From Hydrogenivirga caldilitoris (GTDB lineage: Bacteria; Aquificota; Aquificia; Aquificales; Aquificaceae): a DNA stretch of 64,000 nt. The notes under the pieces are model-generated. The model did not search any database, had not been told where the DNA came from, and saw only the letters and a list, made by a program, of their open reading frames with translations. The position numbers and the translations under genes are program-made. The stretch is from the NCBI RefSeq assembly GCF_003664005.1, contig NZ_RCCJ01000001.1:372001-436000 (forward strand). The letters run 5' to 3'. Within the stretch, counting starts at the first letter, position 1. Each line of letters opens with the position of its first letter. This document shows positions 3,140-63,511 of this stretch, piece by piece.

Positions 3140-3839
3140 GCTTCTCAAAAGCGGTTACGACCTATCTATTGTTTACAGAAGTTCCGAGGACTCGGTTAAA
3201 GAGGTTTTAAAGGAAGGAGATAGGAGAGGCAGGAGAGTCCTGGCGATAAGGGCAGACCTCGGAGACCCTCAAAGTTACGAAAGGGTTGTAAAGGAAACTG
3301 TGAACAGCCTATCAAGGATTGATGCCTTCCTCCATCTTGCTTCACCCTATAGGAGAACTCCCATAGAAGAACTTACCAGGGGGGACCTTTATGAGCACTT
3401 CACTCCCATAGCCGAAGCCTTCCTGTTTCTCTCAAAGCTGTGCTACAGAGAGATGCTCAGGAATGAGGGAGAGATAAAGGGCAGGATAGTAGCTTTCGGG
3501 GACTGGGCTGTAGAGCATACCCCATACAGAGGTTACAGTTCCTACTTTATAGCCAAAGGAGCTCTGCACACCGCCGTAAAGGTTCTTGCAAAGGAGTTTG
3601 CCCCCCACGTCCTCGTGAACGGCATTGCACCAGGACCTGTTATGAAACCGGAGGATATGGACTCGGGTAGTTGGAAGAGGATTCTGAGCAAAACCCCGTT
3701 AAAACGTGAGGTTTCTCTAAGGGATGTCCTCTCCATAACCCTCTTTTTTCTTACCACCGAAAGCGTGACAGGAGAAATCGTTAAGGTTGACTCTGGTAGG
3801 CACTTAGCCGGTTCTGGATTAGGGAGCGTAGAGGGTTGA
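3081..3839 (+). CDS. Short-chain dehydrogenase/reductase, FolM/pteridine-reductase-like
   Basis: This 252-residue SDR has the nucleotide-binding motif TGVRRIG at 8-14 and the catalytic Tyr155-Lys159 pair (YFIAK). TGxxRIG rather than TGxxxGIG is typical of the FolM / pteridine reductase branch, where the arginine favours NADPH. FolM-type enzymes reduce dihydropterins; that function is inferred, and other SDR substrates are possible. The start at 3081 is needed to keep the glycine motif near the N-terminus, so the gene overlaps the lipoprotein gene by 59 nt. The next gene, QueC-like, starts within its stop codon. Both pterins and deazapurines derive from GTP, which makes the pairing suggestive. 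Confidence 0.82.
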   Translation: MEKVALVTGVRRIGQRIAFELLKSGYDLSIVYRSSEDSVKEVLKEGDRRGRRVLAIRADLGDPQSYERVVKETVNSLSRIDAFLHLASPYRRTPIEELTRGDLYEHFTPIAEAFLFLSKLCYREMLRNEGEIKGRIVAFGDWAVEHTPYRGYSSYFIAKGALHTAVKVLAKEFAPHVLVNGIAPGPVMKPEDMDSGSWKRILSKTPLKREVSLRDVLSITLFFLTTESVTGEIVKVDSGRHLAGSGLGSVEG

Positions 3840-4441
3840 AGAAAATAGCGGTTCTTTACAGCTCAGGAGTTGAGAGTGCATCTCTGACAGTCCATTACCT
3901 TGATGAGGGTTTTTTAGTTTACCCCGTTTATGTTCGCTGTGGACTTCCTTGGGAGAAGGTGGAAGTGAAGTGGGCTTCAAGGCTCTGGTCTTACCTCAGG
4001 GGTAGATATAAGAGAGTTATGCCTTTCAGGACCGTATTTTTAAGAGGTCTGGGAGTATCCAGAGGTATAGAGATACCTCTGAGGAACCTTGTTCTCACTA
4101 CCCACGCAGCCATTGAAGCTATCAAAAGGAACGTAAAGAGTGTGGCGGTTGGAAGCCTTGGCATATACCCCTTTCCAGACAACAACAGGGAATACTTTGA
4201 TGCTCTTCAAAACCTTATAAGAAAAGGGTCTAAGGAGGAGTTCAGGATAGAGACCCCCTTTATGGGCATGGAGAAGTGGGAGGTTATAAGAAAGTTCTAT
4301 GGGAGACTCAGATACGAACTTACATTCTCCTGTGTCAGACCTGTGAAGGGAATGCACTGTGGAAGATGCTTAAAGTGTATAGAGAGGAAGGAAGGTTTCA
4401 AGCTAGCCGGCGTGAAAGACCCTACTTTTTATCTTTCATGA
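3836..4441 (+). CDS. QueC-like PP-loop ATPase with C-terminal zinc cysteines
   Basis: The 201-residue product resembles 7-cyano-7-deazaguanine synthase. It has an N-terminal PP-loop, a middle IPLRNLVLTTHAA segment like the QueC PGRN region, and a C-terminal C-x(10)-C-x2-C-x2-C zinc cluster (FSCVRP...HCGRCLKC). The PP-loop reads SSGVES, whereas classical QueC has SGGxDS, so Gly and Asp are replaced by Ser and Glu. This may therefore be a paralogue with a different substrate. Translation probably starts at the TTG at 3836, overlapping the SDR stop (TTGA). QueC makes preQ0 for tRNA queuosine; no other queuosine gene is in the window. Confidence 0.65.
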   Translation: MKKIAVLYSSGVESASLTVHYLDEGFLVYPVYVRCGLPWEKVEVKWASRLWSYLRGRYKRVMPFRTVFLRGLGVSRGIEIPLRNLVLTTHAAIEAIKRNVKSVAVGSLGIYPFPDNNREYFDALQNLIRKGSKEEFRIETPFMGMEKWEVIRKFYGRLRYELTFSCVRPVKGMHCGRCLKCIERKEGFKLAGVKDPTFYLS

Positions 4442-4646
4442 CCTCCTGTATCCTTTTTTCCATAAGGTCCTTGTAGTAAAGCTTCTCCTTCTTCAACTTC
4501 TCTATCTCAAGTTCAAGGTCATGGGTCATAGGGCGGTGTCTTTCAAGTTTAGCTATATCCTTATCAAGCTCATCGTGCCTGTCCTTCCATTCCTTAAACT
4601 TTGGGTCTTCTTCATAGAGCTTCTTTATAACTTCCTCCCTATTCAT
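4422..4646 (-). CDS. Small coiled-coil protein, DUF465 (YdcH) type
   Basis: This 74-residue, highly charged helical protein begins MNREEVIKKLYEEDPKFKEW and contains a motif reading HDELDKDIAKLERHRP. Short helical hairpins with this Phe/His/Leu spacing are typical of the DUF465 / YdcH family, whose function is unknown. The start is the ATG whose first bases overlap the stop of the upstream membrane-protein gene (ATGA), with an AAGGGAG ribosome site. It is the last gene of the purA operon and overlaps the convergent QueC-like gene by 20 nt. Confidence 0.8.
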   Translation of the reverse strand: MNREEVIKKLYEEDPKFKEWKDRHDELDKDIAKLERHRPMTHDLELEIEKLKKEKLYYKDLMEKRIQEVMKDKK

Positions 4647-5074
4647 ATCACATCTCCCTTTCTGGGTCTGAAAACTATTAAACCACATAAAGAAAGAAAG
4701 AATCCAAGTAACAGAGCAGAAAAGCTCCCTGCAAATATAAAGAACACAAAGGCTACCGCAAACGGTACGCATATAAGGACGTAGCTCCAGAAGTACCTTC
4801 TTACCGCGGTGTAGCTCCAGTACTCCTCCGAAGTTTTCACGGGAAAAAGTTTCCTTCGCACGATAAAGGCTACCGTATAACCTAAAACAGCGGTAAAAAT
4901 TTCAATTCCATAAACGTATAGTATCAACTTTGCCGAAACAGGCATTGAAAAGAACCTGTATAAGGCTAAACAAACCACAAACAGGACTGTTATTGATGCT
5001 ATAAACGCCAAATTAAACTGTTTTGCTCTCTTTATAAAGAGCTCACTTTTATCTGAGGCAGTTCCTTGAGCCAT
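4643..5074 (-). CDS. Four-helix membrane protein of unknown function
   Basis: The 143-residue protein has about four hydrophobic segments (roughly 20-41, 47-68, 91-111 and 113-133). Basic residues between them (RRKLFPVK, VRRYF) suggest cytoplasmic loops. I do not recognise the family. The start overlaps the end of purA by 43 nt; no later ATG would keep the first helix. The stop overlaps the DUF465 start (ATGA). Translational coupling with purA is likely, but nothing visible says what the protein does in that context. Confidence 0.7.
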   Translation of the reverse strand: MAQGTASDKSELFIKRAKQFNLAFIASITVLFVVCLALYRFFSMPVSAKLILYVYGIEIFTAVLGYTVAFIVRRKLFPVKTSEEYWSYTAVRRYFWSYVLICVPFAVAFVFFIFAGSFSALLLGFFLSLCGLIVFRPRKGDVI

Positions 5075-6333
5075 ATAAATTCTTCCCTCTTAGGTCCAGT
5101 GGAGAGCATTATAACAGGCACACCGGTGAAATCTTCTATAAACCTTATGTATTCTATAGCCTGCGCTGGTAAGTCCTTTATGTCCTTTGCCCCCTTGGTG
5201 TCTCTCTTCCAGCCCTTTAAGGTTTTGTAGACTGGTTTCGCAGACTCTAAAACTTTTAGGGACGCAGGGAAGGTTTCTATCCTATCGCCTTCGTACTCGT
5301 AAGCCACGCACACCCTGACTTCATCAAAGCTGTCTAATACGTCCAGCTTGGTGAGTATGAGCCCATCAAAATGGTTTAGTTCAACCGCATACTTGAGGGC
5401 TACGAGGTCCAACCACCCACACCTTCTCGGTCTTCCTGTGGTTGAGCCATACTCTCCCCCTATGTCCCTTAGCTTATCACCCTCTTCGTTCTTTAGCTCG
5501 GTTGGGAAAGGTCCACCTCCAACCCTTGTAGTGTAAGCTTTTGCAACACCAATAAGGTAAGCGTCCGAAAAGAACTTAGGGGATAATCCTGTCCCGTTTG
5601 ACAACCCCAGGGCGGACGAGTTTGAGGAGGTAACGTATGGGTAGGTTCCGATATCAACATCAAGCATAGTTCCCTGAGCGCCCTCAAAGAGGAGGGTCTT
5701 TTCGGTCTTTAGGAGATACTGGCACACATCCGTTACAAACTCTTTGTACTTTGAGTATCTTTCAAGGGTTCTTTCAAAGATAAGTTCTACTTCAAGGTCA
5801 TGGTTCTCACAAAACACCTTTTCACATATATCCCTCACAAAGGCAACGTTCTCCTCTATTAGGGAGTAAAACCTCTTCTCATCATCAAGGTCAGCGAGTC
5901 TTATTCCCTTCCTACCAAACTTGAACATGTAGGCAGGACCTATACCTCTCAGGGTGGTTCCTATCCCCCCCTTCTTTTCAAAGAGCCTGTCAAGGAGCTT
6001 ATGATAGGGCATAACCAGGTGTGCTCTATCACTTATGAGAAGCCTACCTTCGTAATCTATTCCCCTTTCCTTTAACCCTTCCAACTCCTGGTCAAGGACA
6101 TCAAGGTCAACCACCATGCCCTGAGCTATGACACCAACCACGTGGGGGTGCAGTATCCCAGTCGGAAGAAGGTGTAGTATGAATTTTTCACCGTTAGCTA
6201 TGACGGTATGACCTGCATTGCTGCCACCCTGGTATCTTACAGTTATATCGTAACCCTCTGACAGCAAGTCCACTATCTTGCCCTTTCCTTCGTCACCCCA
6301 CTGGGCACCCAAAATTACGAGCTTTCTCTCCAT
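5032..6333 (-). CDS. purA: Adenylosuccinate synthetase
   Basis: PurA joins IMP and aspartate using GTP to make adenylosuccinate, the first committed step to AMP. The 433-residue length is normal. The N-terminus has the hallmark phosphate loop GAQWGDEGKGK, followed by QGGSNAGHT and the IMP-binding region with STTGRPRRCGW. It is the first gene of a minus-strand operon with two small genes overlapping its 3' end. It is divergent from the iclR gene at 6378, with only 44 nt between the two starts. Confidence 0.97.
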   Translation of the reverse strand: MERKLVILGAQWGDEGKGKIVDLLSEGYDITVRYQGGSNAGHTVIANGEKFILHLLPTGILHPHVVGVIAQGMVVDLDVLDQELEGLKERGIDYEGRLLISDRAHLVMPYHKLLDRLFEKKGGIGTTLRGIGPAYMFKFGRKGIRLADLDDEKRFYSLIEENVAFVRDICEKVFCENHDLEVELIFERTLERYSKYKEFVTDVCQYLLKTEKTLLFEGAQGTMLDVDIGTYPYVTSSNSSALGLSNGTGLSPKFFSDAYLIGVAKAYTTRVGGGPFPTELKNEEGDKLRDIGGEYGSTTGRPRRCGWLDLVALKYAVELNHFDGLILTKLDVLDSFDEVRVCVAYEYEGDRIETFPASLKVLESAKPVYKTLKGWKRDTKGAKDIKDLPAQAIEYIRFIEDFTGVPVIMLSTGPKREEFIWLKELPQIKVSSL

Positions 6334-6358
6334 AGACTTAACTCCGAACTTCTAATTG

Positions 6359-6364
6359 TATAAT
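6359..6364 (+). promoter_or_regulatory. Possible -10 box for the iclR gene
   Basis: A perfect TATAAT lies 13 nt before the iclR ATG, in the 44-nt gap shared with purA. No convincing -35 box sits 17 nt upstream, so the call is weak. If used, the transcript would have almost no leader. Confidence 0.35.
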
Positions 6365-6377
6365 ATGAGGCGTAAAG

Positions 6378-7073
6378 ATGCATAGAGATAAAAGTTTTTA
6401 TGTCATACAGAACGTAGATTACGCTTTACGTATACTCCTCCTTATAGAGAAGGAACCAAGAACGATGGAAGACCTCCAGCGGGAAACTGGTCTTAAACCA
6501 GACAGGATAGAGAGGATACTTGCCACTTTCGTTGATAGGGAATGGCTCAGCTACCACGAAGAATCCGGCAGGTACATGCTGGGTGTGAGGTGTTTTGAAC
6601 TGGGAAGAGCTTACTTTCAGCACCTTGATGTTAGGAATTTAGCCAAGCCTGTTCTGAGAGACGTTGTTGAGAAACTTAAGGAAAACGCCTACCTTACTAC
6701 ACGCATAGGTTACGAGGTTCTTTATATAGAAAAGTATGAGGTTGAGAAAGAGGTCGGCATCCTTTCAAGGTTTGGAAGGGTTCTCCCGATGTACGCTTCC
6801 GCTTCAGGAAAGATATTCCTTGCCTTCTTTGACGAGAGGGAGATAGAAGATTACTTCAAGAAGGTCAAGTGGGTGAGATACACCCAGAACACAAAGGAAC
6901 CGGAAGAGGTGAAGAGGGAATTAAAGGAGATAAGGGAAAGGGGGTTCTCGGTGAACCTTGGTGAGTATGAAGAGGATGTGGTTAGTATAGCTGCACCGGT
7001 TTTTGATTACGCCGGTAAAGTGAGTTATACCGTCAGTGTTGTGGCACCTGCCTACAGGGTTCCTAAGGAATAG
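6378..7073 (+). CDS. IclR-family transcriptional regulator, ended by an in-frame TAG
   Basis: The 231-residue product has an N-terminal winged helix-turn-helix (about 10-65) and an IclR effector domain (about 80-231, with ASASGKIFLAF and IAAPVFD motifs). The frame stops at TAG 7071-7073 just after YRVPKE. The same frame then continues for 23 codons (LFSKFKDITMSAAEELSKRL followed by GKL) to a TAA at 7143-7145. That segment looks like the normal last helix of IclR proteins (xxAAEELSKRLG), and its stop abuts the convergent gene. The ancestral gene therefore very likely ended at 7145, and the TAG is a recent nonsense mutation, a read-through site or a sequencing error. It lies beside the carbon-fixation operon it may regulate. 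Confidence 0.88.
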   Translation: MHRDKSFYVIQNVDYALRILLLIEKEPRTMEDLQRETGLKPDRIERILATFVDREWLSYHEESGRYMLGVRCFELGRAYFQHLDVRNLAKPVLRDVVEKLKENAYLTTRIGYEVLYIEKYEVEKEVGILSRFGRVLPMYASASGKIFLAFFDEREIEDYFKKVKWVRYTQNTKEPEEVKRELKEIRERGFSVNLGEYEEDVVSIAAPVFDYAGKVSYTVSVVAPAYRVPKE

Positions 7074-7141
7074 CTCTTTTCAAAGTTCAAAGATATAACC
7101 ATGTCCGCAGCCGAGGAGTTGTCCAAAAGACTTGGGAAGCT

Positions 7142-7801
7142 CTAATCCCAGTAACCCAGCTTCAGAGATATATCCAGAGCTGCGTCCTCAAGGAGGGGTT
7201 TTATCTCCCTGTCTATGACGTCCAGAGGCATCCTGTAAGTTGGAGCCAGAACTTCAACAGCTCCTATGGGTCTGCCCTTGTAGTCTCTTATCACGCAGGC
7301 TCCACCTGCTATTCCGTTCTTCTCATCGTACTCGTGGTCAAATGCGAAACCCATTTCCCCCCTGAGGGCTCTCCTTATCGCCTTTGCCGAGCTGACAGGG
7401 CTGTTTATCCTGTATCTCCTGCCTTCCCTCGGTTTAACCTTCACAGGCTTTATAGTTTCTTCAGAGGCAACGTAGATTATATACTGTTGTTTATCATCCA
7501 GCATGGCAAGGTTTACACTTTCCCCCAGCCTGAACCTGAGACCTTTAAGTACAGGCATTGAGAGCCTGGTTAGAGGATGTTTATGGATAAAGCCGTAACC
7601 CAAGACCACACAACCGGTGGAGAGTTTATACTTCTCTGTTTCCTCTTCCTTCTCAACAAGCTTGTGTTCCTCTAAAGTAACCAGTATCCTGAAAACGTTG
7701 TTCTTGTTGAGGTTTAACTCATTGCTTATCTCGGTAACGCCTGCTGTGCCCTTATTCATTAAAAAGTCAAGTACGTCAAGGGTCTTTTTGAGAGCCTTCA
7801 T
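7142..7801 (-). CDS. IclR-family transcriptional regulator
   Basis: This 219-residue regulator has a winged helix-turn-helix (about 1-60, with EISNELNLNKNNVFRIL as the recognition region) and an IclR effector domain ending in the usual amphipathic helix (EDAALDISLKLG). The ATG at 7801 is preferred over the adjacent in-frame TTG at 7804. It is divergent from icd, with 165 nt between the starts, and converges on the other iclR gene with a 4-nt overlap of the latter's ancestral end. The position makes it the leading candidate for control of the icd-osmC-cfiB-cfiA operon. The effector is not predictable; a TCA-cycle or carboxylate metabolite is a guess. Confidence 0.93.
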   Translation of the reverse strand: MKALKKTLDVLDFLMNKGTAGVTEISNELNLNKNNVFRILVTLEEHKLVEKEEETEKYKLSTGCVVLGYGFIHKHPLTRLSMPVLKGLRFRLGESVNLAMLDDKQQYIIYVASEETIKPVKVKPREGRRYRINSPVSSAKAIRRALRGEMGFAFDHEYDEKNGIAGGACVIRDYKGRPIGAVEVLAPTYRMPLDVIDREIKPLLEDAALDISLKLGYWD

Positions 7802-7870
7802 CAAAACAGTATTTTACTCCTTAGCAAGGTACGGTATATGGTAAAGTTTACCTGCGGGAGCGGTGTAATA

Positions 7871-7889
7871 AGGTCTTTCTAACAGACCT
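7871..7889. promoter_or_regulatory. Inverted repeat upstream of icd, candidate IclR operator
   Basis: AGGTCT-ttctaac-AGACCT is a perfect 6-bp dyad with a 7-nt spacer. Its centre is about 66 bp before the transcription start predicted from the icd promoter, a typical activator position. It also lies in the upstream region of the divergent iclR gene. The link to either IclR protein is inferred from location only. Confidence 0.45.
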
Positions 7890-7910
7890 AAAACGATGTT
7901 TTAAAAATCC

Positions 7911-7939
7911 TTGACAGTGCACTCAGGCTCACATAAAAT
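7911..7939 (+). promoter_or_regulatory. Sigma-70-type promoter of the icd-cfi operon
   Basis: There is a perfect -35 TTGACA (7911-7916), a 17-nt spacer and a -10 TAAAAT (7934-7939, one mismatch from TATAAT). Transcription would start near 7946, about 20 nt before the ATG, leaving room for the AGGAGGAG ribosome site. This is the best consensus promoter seen in the window, as expected for a highly expressed carbon-fixation operon. Confidence 0.75.
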
Positions 7940-7966
7940 TTTTAACACTTTTCTCAGGAGGAGATA

Positions 7967-9247
7967 ATGGAAGTTGTTAGGGCGGAAAATGTGTACCCAT
8001 GGGAAGGAAAAGCCCAGAAACCCAAGGAAGGAGAGTTCATAAAACTCAACCCTGACAAGACCATAGAGGTTCCTGACAAACCCATAATCCCCTACATAGA
8101 GGGGGACGGAATAGGAGCAGAAATCACCCCGGCGATGATACATGTGGTGAACGCTGCTGTAGAGAAAACCTACGGCGGTTCCAAGAGGATAATCTGGGTT
8201 GAGGTTCTTGCCGGAGATAAGGCTGAAGAGAAAGCGGGAGATAGACTCCCCCAGGAAACCCTTGAGTTTTTGAAGGAAGCTGTCGTTGGTATAAAGGGAC
8301 CCCTGGGAACTCCAGTAGGTAAGGGTGTCCGCTCCATAAACTCCGCCCTTAGGCGTGCCTTTGACTTTTACTCTGCGGTTCGCCCAGTTTACTGGATGGG
8401 TCAGCCTACCCCCATACCTGATCCTCAGAGGGTTGACGTAGTCGTGTTCAGAGAGAATACCGATGACGTTTACGCAGGGGTTGAGTTCTTTTCAGGAACT
8501 GATGAAGCAAAGAAGGTCAGGGAGTTCCTCATAAAAGAGATGGGAGCTAAAGAGGAGGGTTTTCCGGAGGATGTTGGTATAACCGTGAAGCCCATGAGCG
8601 AATTCAAAACCAAGAGACACGTAAGAAAGGCTCTCAGATACGCCCTTGAGAACGGAAGGAAGAACGTTGCCGTTATAGGTAAGGGGAACATAATGAAGGC
8701 TACCGAGGGAGCCTTTATAAACTGGGCTTTTGAAGTTGCCCAAGAACCTGAGTTCGCCGATAAGGTTTTAACAGACCCGGAAGCCCAGCCCAATGAAGGA
8801 CAGGTAAAGTTAAGCAAGGTTATAACCGACCAAATGCTCATGCAACTTGTCCTGAAACCGGACGCCTGGGACGTGGTGATAGCGCAGAATCTGAATGGGG
8901 ACTACGTTTCTGACCTCGCTGCAGCCCTCATAGGCGGTCCAGGTTTTGTTCCGAGTGGAAATATAGGAGACGGATACGCCCTCTTTGAGAGTACCCATGG
9001 AACCGCCTGGGACATAGCGGGTAAGGGTATAGCCAACCCCCTATCCTTAACCCTGTCCGGAGCCATGATGCTTGAATACATCGGCTGGAGGGAAGCTGCC
9101 CAAAAGATATACGAAGCTGTCAAGAAGACCTTTGAGGATAAGGTTGGGACTCCGGACATAGCCGCTGGCTTTAAGAAGCTTGGTATTGAGGCTAAGGCTG
9201 TTTCAACCTATGAGTACGCCCAGGAGATAGCAAAGAGGATTCAGTAA
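7967..9247 (+). CDS. icd: Isocitrate dehydrogenase, probably NAD-type (oxalosuccinate reductase role)
   Basis: This 426-residue enzyme of the isocitrate/isopropylmalate dehydrogenase family interconverts oxalosuccinate or 2-oxoglutarate and isocitrate. Isocitrate-binding residues lie in VRSINSALRR (121-130), and metal-binding Asp lies in the GDYVSD region (311-316). The cofactor loop reads HGTAWDIAG (344-352). E. coli NADP enzyme has Lys-Tyr at the equivalent of D349-I350, and Asp-Ile at that place marks NAD-specific enzymes. That agrees with the published NAD-dependent, non-decarboxylating enzyme of Hydrogenobacter thermophilus. It is the first gene of an operon with the 2-oxoglutarate carboxylase, so it should run in the reductive direction. 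Residue correspondences were aligned by eye. Confidence 0.95.
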   Translation: MEVVRAENVYPWEGKAQKPKEGEFIKLNPDKTIEVPDKPIIPYIEGDGIGAEITPAMIHVVNAAVEKTYGGSKRIIWVEVLAGDKAEEKAGDRLPQETLEFLKEAVVGIKGPLGTPVGKGVRSINSALRRAFDFYSAVRPVYWMGQPTPIPDPQRVDVVVFRENTDDVYAGVEFFSGTDEAKKVREFLIKEMGAKEEGFPEDVGITVKPMSEFKTKRHVRKALRYALENGRKNVAVIGKGNIMKATEGAFINWAFEVAQEPEFADKVLTDPEAQPNEGQVKLSKVITDQMLMQLVLKPDAWDVVIAQNLNGDYVSDLAAALIGGPGFVPSGNIGDGYALFESTHGTAWDIAGKGIANPLSLTLSGAMMLEYIGWREAAQKIYEAVKKTFEDKVGTPDIAAGFKKLGIEAKAVSTYEYAQEIAKRIQ

Positions 9248-59487: not shown

Positions 59488-60012
59488 ATGGGTTTCATAT
59501 ATATGACCTCCTTTGGAGGTGTTGAGAGCAGACTGCTTATAGGTTCAGCCACGAATGTAAAGGAAACCTTCGGTTTTAGCGTACGTGTATCTTCTGTGCC
59601 CTTTCCACCAAAGCTCGGCTTTAACCCAAGAAGGGGGCAGTTCCACGCAGGAACTATCCTCTCTTACTTAAGCCAGCTTTACTTTCCGGAGCTTGTACGT
59701 ATGGTAGCCCTTGTCGGCTTTGACCTTTACGAGGAAGGTTTAAACTTTGTGTTTGGAGAAGCTGAACTTGGAGGAAAAAGCGCCCTCATAAGCGTTTACA
59801 GGTTGAAGCATTATGATGAGCGAATAACCTTTGAGAGAACCTTTAAGGAGGTAAACCATGAACTTGGGCACACCTTTGGGCTCACCCACTGTTCTGATAC
59901 CACCTGTGTTATGAGCTTCTCAAATTCTCTTGCTGATGTTGATAGAAAATCAAGAGAGTTCTGTGAAAGTTGTAAAGGGAAGCTGAGGTTAGCCCTTTCC
60001 TCTTACAGATAG
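59488..60012 (+). CDS. Archaemetzincin-family zinc metalloprotease
   Basis: The 174-residue protein has the metzincin-type HELGHTFGLTH (124-134) directly followed by Cys135. The second zinc site of archaemetzincins is then seen as C140, C159 and C162 (CVMSFSN, FCESC). This HExxHxxGxxHCx4CxMx17CxxC pattern is specific to the archaemetzincin family, which is common in archaea and sparse in bacteria. The cellular substrate is unknown. No signal peptide is seen, so it acts in the cytoplasm. It overlaps the convergent MFS gene by 24 nt. Confidence 0.92.
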   Translation: MGFIYMTSFGGVESRLLIGSATNVKETFGFSVRVSSVPFPPKLGFNPRRGQFHAGTILSYLSQLYFPELVRMVALVGFDLYEEGLNFVFGEAELGGKSALISVYRLKHYDERITFERTFKEVNHELGHTFGLTHCSDTTCVMSFSNSLADVDRKSREFCESCKGKLRLALSSYR

Positions 60013-61173: not shown

Positions 61174-61725
61174 TCAGGAGCCTTCCAGGCTGTATCTGAT
61201 AATCTCTAAAAGGGTTAGTAAAGTCTTCTTAACGTCCTCCTTATCCTTCGCGGAAAGGGGTATTACCGGTATGCCCTCCTCCTCGGATATATCAAGGGCA
61301 AACTTTACATCCTCAGGAGACCAGGCGTTGGGAAGGTCCTGTTTATTGGCACCAACCACAACCGGCACAGGGAACCTTGACTGGAAGAAGTTGATTATCT
61401 TCCTCGCTTCGTGAAAGGTTTTTGGGTCAGTGCTGTCAACGAGAACTATTATCCCCAGGGCACCCTCACCGAGTATCTCCCACATGAAATCAAACCTTGA
61501 TTGCCCAGGTGTCCCAAAAAGGTACAGTTCGTGCTCATCGTCTATCCTTATCTTTCCGAAATCCATAGCAACGGTGGTGTAGTCTTTAACGTTTTTTTCA
61601 GTTATACCAGAGGTTTTCCTTTCGGTAGCGACGGTCTTTATCTCGCTTACTGTATTTATAAACTGGGTCTTCCCTGCCGCGAAGGGACCTGCCACAACTA
61701 TCTTAATCTTTTTAAGCTCCTTCAT
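61174..61725 (-). CDS. Ras-like small GTPase, CvnD/COG2229 type
   Basis: The 183-residue GTPase has G1 GPFAAGKT (13-20), G3 FGTPGQ (70-75) followed by RFDFMWEIL, G4 NKQD (127-130) and G5 SAK. The G3 motif begins Gly-Thr instead of the usual Asp-Thr, and the RFxFMWE stretch matches the COG2229 family. That family includes CvnD of actinobacterial conservons and is related to MglA. The protein is cytoplasmic. The genes upstream encode a DUF4388 protein and a roadblock protein, the expected regulatory partners. Confidence 0.9.
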   Translation of the reverse strand: MKELKKIKIVVAGPFAAGKTQFINTVSEIKTVATERKTSGITEKNVKDYTTVAMDFGKIRIDDEHELYLFGTPGQSRFDFMWEILGEGALGIIVLVDSTDPKTFHEARKIINFFQSRFPVPVVVGANKQDLPNAWSPEDVKFALDISEEEGIPVIPLSAKDKEDVKKTLLTLLEIIRYSLEGS

Positions 61726-61732
61726 GCCCCAC

Positions 61733-62425
61733 CTACAGCTGCTTTATTTTCTCTATTATCTTTGCAAGAAGGTCAAGGGTTATGGAGGGTTTCTGCACCC
61801 TCTCCTTCCTCTTCCTTCTTATTATCCCCGCTGCGAGAAAACCGTATAGAGCTCTATCAACGGTAAGCCTGTCCAACCCTGCCTCTTTCCTTATGTCTGC
61901 GACGCTCTTATTCCCATCTACAAGGGATAGAACTTTCTTCTCCTCCTCTGTTAGATTAACCCTGGCGACTCTCTCATCTACATCGGGAGCTTTTTCAAAC
62001 ACCAAAAGCTCATCGGAGATTTTTCTCTCAACCTCCTCCTCTGTAAGGGAACGTGAGGCTCTCATGATGAGCTCTTCCACCGGGTAACGGACCGGTACAT
62101 CGCTATCGTACTTTATAAACCCGGGCGTAAAGGAAAATATACCTTCTTTCTGCTCAAGCCTCGGTAAAAAGAAGCGCTCTATAGTTTTGTGGATATCTTC
62201 CTTCTTTATACGTAGTCTGCTGATGAGCTGCTCAAAGTTCCTGTCCGTATATACCCTGAAAACCTTGTCAACTGGTCTTGCGAAGATGACCTCCCCGTCT
62301 TTAACGTAGTATGCGACTATCATATCCTTCCATTCAACCAAAAGAACACCGCTCTTTTTATCCTTGGCAAGGACCTGAAGTATATCTGCAAAGCTGAAAG
62401 TGGTTAAATCTCCTGTAAGCGCCAT
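61733..62425 (-). CDS. DUF4388 (PATAN-like) protein with winged-helix end
   Basis: The 230-residue protein begins MALTGDLTTFSFADILQVLAKDKKSGVL, the typical DUF4388 start, with the domain spanning about 1-120. The C-terminal part (about 160-215, LTEEEKKVLSLVDGNKSVADI then LTVDRALYGFLAAGII) looks like a winged-helix. DUF4388 proteins often accompany small GTPases and response regulators. It lies between the roadblock gene (3-nt gap) and the GTPase gene (7-nt gap) and is the likely adaptor between them. Confidence 0.86.
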   Translation of the reverse strand: MALTGDLTTFSFADILQVLAKDKKSGVLLVEWKDMIVAYYVKDGEVIFARPVDKVFRVYTDRNFEQLISRLRIKKEDIHKTIERFFLPRLEQKEGIFSFTPGFIKYDSDVPVRYPVEELIMRASRSLTEEEVERKISDELLVFEKAPDVDERVARVNLTEEEKKVLSLVDGNKSVADIRKEAGLDRLTVDRALYGFLAAGIIRRKRKERVQKPSITLDLLAKIIEKIKQL

Positions 62426-62428
62426 CTA

Positions 62429-62785
62429 TTAACCTATAGCCTCCTTAAGTTGAGTCTGAGCTTTCTTTATATCCATAAGCAGGAGACCCAGCTTGGCAGC
62501 GTTGCTTGCAAGGACGGTAAGAACCGCGTCCTGTCCGATTCCGGTAAGCACGATGTAGCCCTCTTCCCCTTTTATGGTAATCTGCTCAAGGGTTCCCTTT
62601 TGAAGTTCCTCAGTGACCTTTTCTCCCAGGGAGAGGATAGCTGCGCTCATAGCTGCAACTCTGTCCTCCTCTATGCCCGGCTTGAGTACCGCGGATATGG
62701 GGAGACCATCGGCACTGACGAGAACGGCACCTTCCAAACCAGAACTTTTGATAAGTTCCTGCAAGACCTTCTCGTACTTGTCCAT
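62429..62785 (-). CDS. Roadblock/LC7 domain protein
   Basis: The 118-residue single-domain protein has the roadblock pattern: SSGLEGAVLVSADGLPISAVL, an AAMSAAILSLGEKV helix and GYIVLTGIGQDAVLTVLAS. Roadblock dimers act as GTPase-activating or scaffolding partners of bacterial Ras-like GTPases (MglB for MglA, CvnB for CvnD). Gene order with the GTPase supports the same pairing here. Confidence 0.92.
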   Translation of the reverse strand: MDKYEKVLQELIKSSGLEGAVLVSADGLPISAVLKPGIEEDRVAAMSAAILSLGEKVTEELQKGTLEQITIKGEEGYIVLTGIGQDAVLTVLASNAAKLGLLLMDIKKAQTQLKEAIG

Positions 62786-62800
62786 ATCTAATAACCCTCC

Positions 62801-63511
62801 TTATTCTTCTTTTATAAGTTCAAGTCTCTTCATTACTCCTCTCTCCAGCTTCATAACCCTTTCTATCCCCTCCTTTACTCTCTGAACATCTATTTTATCG
62901 TCTTTTTCTTCCAGAAGTGCAGAAATTCTTTCAAGCTCTTCCCCGCACTCTCTAAGGTCCCTTTTTATCTCCATGAAAAGCTCTGCGTAATCCTCAAATA
63001 CGTTCTGGACAGCCTGCCCTATAGCTCCAACCGGGTCAAGTCCTGCAGGAAACTCCGTCTTCAGGTAGCCTTCTCTGACCCTGTCCAGGGATTCCAAAAG
63101 CTTTGAGGTGTTTTCCGATATGCTCTCTATCTGGTCTTCCAGTGCGTTAATCTGTTTTTGATATTTGTCTTCAAAGTTCTTCACAAGCTCCTTTATGCTT
63201 TCAACAACGGTAACCATCTCCTCGTGGATAGGTATCGGGACTACGGTCTTCTCCTTATGCCTTTCTTCAAGGATATCTATCACATACATCAGCCTTCCGA
63301 ACAACTCCTCAAGTTTTCCCTTAGTCCAGAGAAGGTTGAAGACTACCCATGCGGAGGATATGGCAAAGCCCACACCGAGGGCGTAGTATGGATTTACCTG
63401 CCCGAGAAAAAATAGGGCGAAGGATATAAGTATCCCCAGGAATATGGAAGAAAGAACGAAAAATTTTAGAAGCTCGTTTCCTAAAGAGGAAATTCTCGGT
63501 GTTTCAACCAT
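62801..63511 (-). CDS. Membrane-anchored coiled-coil protein, first gene of the GTPase module
   Basis: The 236-residue protein has two membrane helices (about 14-36 and 41-62). A long cytoplasmic coiled-coil (about 65-230) includes KNFEDKYQKQINALEDQIES and the closing LEEKDDKIDVQRVKEGIERV. I recognise no catalytic domain. It could anchor or sense for the roadblock/GTPase pair, in the position that a CvnA-type kinase occupies in conservons. The ATG at 63511 is preferred; a TTG at 63526 is an alternative. Confidence 0.8.
   Translation of the reverse strand: MVETPRISSLGNELLKFFVLSSIFLGILISFALFFLGQVNPYYALGVGFAISSAWVVFNLLWTKGKLEELFGRLMYVIDILEERHKEKTVVPIPIHEEMVTVVESIKELVKNFEDKYQKQINALEDQIESISENTSKLLESLDRVREGYLKTEFPAGLDPVGAIGQAVQNVFEDYAELFMEIKRDLRECGEELERISALLEEKDDKIDVQRVKEGIERVMKLERGVMKRLELIKEE

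Follow-up and report, generated by a model that had tools for sequence, protein, structure and literature searches.

The four-gene operon examined here is built on a conserved triad of roadblock, DUF4388 (PATAN) and GTPase genes, preceded by the gene of a membrane coiled-coil protein. It lies in the window, the 64,000-nucleotide stretch of DNA from the heat-loving Hydrogenivirga caldilitoris that was analysed, and is an arrangement of known parts in a new way, with a membrane coiled-coil protein where soil actinobacteria put a sensor kinase. On the evidence of sequence comparison, the operon probably encodes a membrane-tethered MglA switch of Group 5 type, with a roadblock GAP, a PATAN-winged-helix (PATAN-wHTH) partner that is GEF-like or an effector, and a coiled-coil protein as tether and relay. 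Neighbouring MglB and PATAN genes were published in 2006 (Makarova et al., as cited in PMC4316618), and neighbouring MglA and PATAN genes in 2014 (Wuichet & Sogaard-Andersen, PMC4316618). Three features appear to be unreported in the literature searched, where no paper combining DUF4388 and roadblock was found: a triad fixed across the order, strict co-inheritance of its genes even where the roadblock gene lies elsewhere, and kinase-free membrane partners specific to certain lineages.

Layout of the operon

An earlier note on this DNA had described four co-directional genes with gaps of 3-15 nt, encoding a two-helix membrane coiled-coil protein, a roadblock/LC7 protein, a DUF4388 protein ending in a winged helix and a Ras-like GTPase. 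Open reading frames, Pfam matches and transmembrane (TM) prediction all agreed with this description (Table 1). The genes are transcribed in the order listed, with intergenic gaps of 15, 3 and 7 nt. An acetolactate synthase small subunit gene lies about 60 bp upstream on the same strand, and an MFS transporter gene follows downstream. The operon had also been called kinase-free, and in the Pfam scan neither its four proteins nor the directly adjacent ones that were included gave a kinase or ATPase match above cut-off. A promoter and terminator scan of the operon gave results no better than shuffled sequence. Elsewhere in the window, an archaemetzincin-family zinc protease gene occupies positions 59488-60012 on the plus strand (NCBIfam 4.5e-50).

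Table 1. Genes of the operon at window positions 61174-63511, in transcript order
Feature	Coordinates	Strand	Basis
Two-TM coiled-coil membrane protein gene, 236 aa	62801..63511	-	ORF, TM helices, AF2, ortholog conservation
Roadblock/LC7 (MglB/CvnB-type) gene, 118 aa	62429..62785	-	Robl_LC7 1.8e-21, PDB profile matches
DUF4388 (PATAN) + winged-helix gene, 230 aa	61733..62425	-	DUF4388 4.4e-22, AF2, co-inheritance
Ras-like GTPase gene, MglA family, Group 5 motifs, 183 aa	61174..61725	-	Pfam, motifs, PDB profile, tree

The triad is conserved and co-inherited across Aquificales

A GTPase ortholog was found in 56 of 61 Aquificales genomes, with 68-97% identity for the 55 others. A DUF4388 protein of about 230 aa was encoded beside it in all of these genomes (56/56), a count for which the contigs and coordinates of both search results were matched by eye. 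The roadblock ortholog was present in 55 of the 56, the exception (G022) being a genome that is 76% complete. Conservation of gene order in relatives had been set beforehand as a test, and the order was kept: the roadblock, PATAN and GTPase genes were adjacent in 30/30 of the first loci examined, and the four-gene order was found in 22/22 homologs from GTDB. With this adjacency and GTPase conservation, the operon is far beyond chance, and its conserved unit is the roadblock-PATAN-GTPase triad.

Five genomes (G020, G025, G032, G053 and G055) had neither the GTPase, the roadblock protein nor the 230-aa DUF4388 type; G053 had only a second DUF4388 type of 267 aa. These five amount to about four independent losses, which makes the effective sample small. 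Apart from the incomplete G022, no genome broke the pattern of co-inheritance. Family f2 has kept the roadblock gene although it no longer lies in the operon, indicating that its link with the other two genes is not only one of co-transcription.

In genus g12 of family f2, the relocated gene follows FliI and FlgD as the third of a run (Pfam) in 3 of 7 loci (L227:3625-5921, L228:1750-4054 and L232:118-2455). Together with homology to MglA/MglB and the binding of PATAN domains to PilB in Synechocystis (PMC10519157), this run in three genomes, a hint toward the flagellum, is what could make the triad a polarity or motility regulator whose target is type IV pili or the flagellum, comparable to Myxococcus MglA/MglB and the cyanobacterial PATAN response regulators. 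The earlier note had thought of such a role, which we consider rather unlikely. PilT was found in all 61 genomes, the five triad-less ones among them, so a type IV pilus link by co-occurrence was dropped as uninformative. Flagellum dependence was rejected on the complete triad-less genome G025, which has FliI (50% identical), FlgD (38%) and rod/hook motifs. Moreover, the FliI-FlgD context is restricted to one lineage and is not present in at least two of the seven g12 loci, and the window GTPase has no Group 1 arginine finger.

The GTPase is of the MglA family and Group 5-like by motifs

The GTPase matched the Pfam families Ras (3.2e-12), Arf (1.3e-10) and ATP_bind_1 (2.1e-18). When a profile of its orthologs was searched, solved MglA structures ranked first (Thermus 3t12, 1.6e-24; Myxococcus 6hjh, 7e-24). 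Its sequence assigns it to the MglA family, with a Ras-superfamily G domain closest to MglA. The motifs are GPFAAGKT in G1, TT in G2, GTPGQ in G3, ANKQD in G4 and LSAK in G5.

The catalytic pattern of MglA Groups 2-5 and the rules for a Group 5-type G4 have been defined, and Group 5 is known from Aquificae (PMC4316618). The window GTPase has GTPGQ in G3, Thr replacing the Arg finger in G2 and, as ANKQD, the canonical [NT]KxD in G4, and the roadblock protein of its operon carries the Asp-Gly pair expected of a Group 5 partner. By the rules of PMC4316618, Thr at the site of the arginine finger together with GTPGQ and a canonical NKxD leaves Group 5 as the bacterial type. Judged by motifs, the GTPase is therefore Group 5-like, and neither of conservon Group 2 nor of motility Group 1. 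Motif comparison did not find the Group 2 markers NxFD (G4) and DAR (G5) in it: conservon GTPases compared side by side have ANCFHG in G4 and DAR in G5, against ANKQD and SAK. The earlier note had placed the protein in one family with CvnD; by its motifs it is not Group 2/CvnD-like.

The Group 1 markers, an arginine finger after the G2 Thr and TVPGQ, were not found in the motifs either, and the tree set the window GTPase apart from the Group 1-like sequences used with support of 100/100. The operon shares with the Myxococcus/Thermus MglA-MglB systems (Group 1) the pairing of a GTPase with a roadblock protein, here a predicted GAP, but differs from them in these motifs and in the tree. Among CvnD, Thermus/Deinococcus sequences and some paralogs this tree, built without a labelled Group 5 reference, did not place the window GTPase. 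Group 5 as described in PMC4316618 is likewise MglB-coupled, without an arginine finger, and sometimes has a PATAN gene nearby. There, however, PATAN is only "occasionally" near and neighbourhoods are variable. The Aquificales triad, in contrast, is a fixed unit inherited together throughout an order, and kinase-free membrane partners specific to certain lineages lie ahead of it.

A second GTPase of the same genome, in another operon, is Group 1-like (TTPGQ, arginine present) and 26% identical to that of the window. Outside the window, the genome also encodes a Group 1-like MglA together with a roadblock protein in a second operon of this kind (L064, G000:C1:466000-479000, positions 3578-9001). 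The pair is flanked by two kinase-less sensor-HAMP membrane proteins (dCache_3-HAMP and Tll0287-HAMP) and by two proteins of 377 and 395 aa with a common C-terminal EIGP-type domain. In genome G060, the match to the GTPase ortholog (C35:31011-31538) has one TAG stop inside.

The roadblock and PATAN proteins as candidate regulators

The Pfam match of the roadblock protein reached 76.1 bits against a cut-off of 23, and its best PDB matches were roadblock proteins (7f8m, 5e-27; CvnB5 3leq, 3e-8). Its Asp-Gly pair, in SADGLPIS, is one described for MglBs that are coupled to Groups 2-5. MfpD, the CvnB-type roadblock protein of the conservon in mycobacteria, is a GAP (PMC13343842, PMC13015309). By position, fold and co-inheritance, the roadblock protein of the window is predicted to be a GAP candidate for the GTPase. 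A Neisseria gonorrhoeae record (L108) encodes a roadblock protein 43% identical to it; the neighbouring GTPase similarity is split over two reading frames, so the gene looks interrupted there.

DUF4388 covers residues 4-130 of the third protein (78.8 bits, cut-off 25), and the C-terminal half gave a weak winged-helix match in Pfam. The AF2 model (pLDDT 89) has two parts: a PATAN domain with a helical insertion (helices 55-60, 64-70 and 75-89 between strands 45-52 and 96-101), then a winged helix at about 156-205 with a basic wing, RRKRKER, and a C-terminal helix with LLxKI. A fold search with this model returned no match below E 0.05.

We compared the C-terminus with DUF742, for which Pfam gave no match. 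In hhalign, the probability was 94% over 74 columns when Thermus/Deinococcus PATAN sequences were included (reversed control 0.1%), and only 25-33% with Aquificales sequences alone. Unrelated winged-helix regulators of the same genomes, used as controls, reached 81-90% over 47-65 columns. A special kinship with DUF742 is not claimed, as 94% is barely above the 90% of generic winged-helix controls; the two likely share a fold. The earlier wording that DUF742 is replaced by DUF4388 holds in that no DUF742 match exists, but is imprecise, since the DUF4388 protein itself ends in a winged helix that can be compared with DUF742.

For MfpC, the CvnC-type protein of the mycobacterial system, a GEF role is likely (PMC13343842, PMC13015309). 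By position, fold and co-inheritance, the PATAN-wHTH protein is predicted to be a candidate GEF-like partner or effector adaptor. It could instead be a DNA-binding output, which would bind the GTP-bound GTPase and control transcription with it while the membrane protein served only as an anchor; we regard this as unlikely. The basic wing, the weak winged-helix match and the PATAN-GTPase pairing, the most invariant adjacency, are consistent with it, as is the hypothesis that CvnC8/CvnD8 control transcription, cvnC8 and cvnD8 mutants having matching expression patterns (PMC8510531). The reported GEF role of MfpC argues against it, PATAN domains elsewhere make protein contacts, for example with PilB (PMC10519157), and the gene is single-copy, with nothing that points to an operator or regulon.

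The coiled-coil protein is a lineage addition

The ATG start of the coiled-coil protein is backed by the sequence MVETP(K/R)(L/I)SSL, which is kept in orthologs. Its TM helices span residues 18-36 and 44-62, and the loop of about seven residues between them leaves no extracellular ligand domain. The AF2 model (mean pLDDT 82) has cytosolic helices at 97-147 and 160-201, joined by a loop with a conserved PxGLDPxGAxGQ, and this helix-loop-helix resembles HAMP. Among the Pfam families listed there was no HAMP match, and a fold search with the model gave no match below E 0.05. Against HAMP, residues 131-188 scored 24% in hhalign (reversed control 6%), and fold matches to HAMP-DHp were weak. A HAMP identity is therefore suggestive only.

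Among the 61 Aquificales genomes, homologs were found only in genera g1, g3, g4 and g8 (24 genomes, plus a contig-end fragment in G035). A pattern scan of GTDB species genomes found 22 homologs, every one from a record titled Aquificaceae, Aquificales, Aquificota or Aquifex, and in 22/22 the order was coiled-coil, roadblock, PATAN, GTPase. Being restricted to four genera, the coiled-coil gene is an addition to the triad in one lineage and not part of an Aquificota-wide four-gene system. The earlier view of a membrane coiled-coil protein in the sensor-kinase slot thus stands for its first position in a kinase-free operon, but not for the phylum as a whole.

It seems quite improbable that the gene is an unrelated neighbour and the triad alone the functional unit. 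The narrow distribution would fit this, as would the lower identity (25-78% among homologs versus 68-97% for the GTPase) and, in the window's genus, the position of the gene after acetolactate synthase genes. However, all GTDB matches lie directly 5' of the roadblock gene on the same strand, even where the upstream genes differ, and the invariant GLDPxGAxGQ turn indicates constraint.

Other lineages have other genes ahead of the triad. Hydrogenothermaceae-type genomes (f3; the family name is inferred) have a DUF4149 gene, the gene of a true HAMP-only protein with two TM helices and about 129 aa, and that of a protein of 305-383 aa. The N-terminus of the last may be roadblock-like: its profile score against roadblock was 79% with homologs from the window genome added (reversed 0.2%) and 19% with f3 sequences alone. 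A profile test found no direct homology between the coiled-coil protein and the HAMP protein of this type (1.4%). Further genera carry either an ArsP_1 permease-like gene or an unrelated gene upstream.

The genome of the window also has two operons (L121:5718-7201 and L122:6611-8054) that each encode a pair of HAMP-only two-TM proteins of 127-137 aa. Each also encodes a protein of 222-231 aa whose C-terminus is of the EIGP type, as in the L064 proteins, and whose N-terminus may be roadblock-like. One of the two operons adjoins a PilB/GspE-like ATPase gene.

Comparison with conservons and proposed mechanism

The earlier note had seen a conservon-like order of membrane protein, roadblock, winged helix and GTPase, and a side-by-side comparison with real conservons at L105, L125 and L126 bore this out. 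Actinobacterial conservons (AGPS; CvnA-B-C-D, MfpE-D-C-B) also begin with a membrane protein followed by a roadblock protein, a winged-helix protein and an MglA-family GTPase. In contrast to them, the window operon has no histidine-kinase-like CvnA (the coiled-coil protein gave no Pfam match to the histidine-kinase ATPase domain of CvnA), no DUF742 match and no Group 2 NxFD/DAR in its GTPase, carries an extra N-terminal PATAN domain, and belongs to another phylum. The operon may work like a conservon but is not one, since a search for the kinase, for DUF742 and for the Group 2 motifs found none of them.

In the mechanism we favour, the GTPase would cycle between GTP and GDP, with a roadblock dimer acting as its GAP. 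The PATAN-wHTH protein would be the third obligate partner, most likely promoting exchange, as the CvnC homolog MfpC reportedly does, or alternatively an effector passing the state of the GTPase to a target. In the window lineage, the two-TM coiled-coil protein, which has hardly any periplasmic portion, would hold the switch at the membrane and bias its cycle. Through its cytosolic helices it would pass a membrane or assembly cue on to the roadblock protein, a task for which conservons have a sensor kinase. Gene content and order, the motifs, co-inheritance and the narrow range of the coiled-coil gene are observed; we infer complex formation, the GAP and GEF roles, the direction of the signal and the output. 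As most genera lack the coiled-coil gene and have a permease gene or no membrane partner instead, tethering through it would not be general.

This bears on how conservon-type switches take in their signal, and with it on the kinase output of CvnA and the role of CvnC. With its co-inherited, kinase-free GAP-wHTH-GTPase core, the lineage would offer a minimal, thermostable set of four proteins from which to reconstitute exchange, hydrolysis and membrane input. A broader and doubtful proposal joins three ideas: kinase-free HAMP-only or HAMP-like two-TM receptors of Aquificales would act directly on roadblock/GTPase switches without phosphorylation, CvnC would be a shortened relative of the PATAN-wHTH protein, and conservons and the triad would derive from one GAP-wHTH-GTPase module. 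A recent study reported mfpC only from Actinobacteria (PMC13015309), a picture that a remote counterpart fused to PATAN, if true, would widen.

Thermus plasmids (T. brockianus pTB1 and T. thermophilus pTthSNM1-7b) also combine the DUF4388, GTPase and roadblock families in one operon, but in the order DUF4388-GTPase-roadblock, with TRxD in G4 of the GTPase and with protoglobin and EAL/HD-GYP genes as neighbours. Protoglobin genes lie by these operons at both plasmid loci (L106 and L109), and EAL and HD-GYP genes also at L106, suggesting gas sensing and a c-di-GMP output for relatives of the switch.
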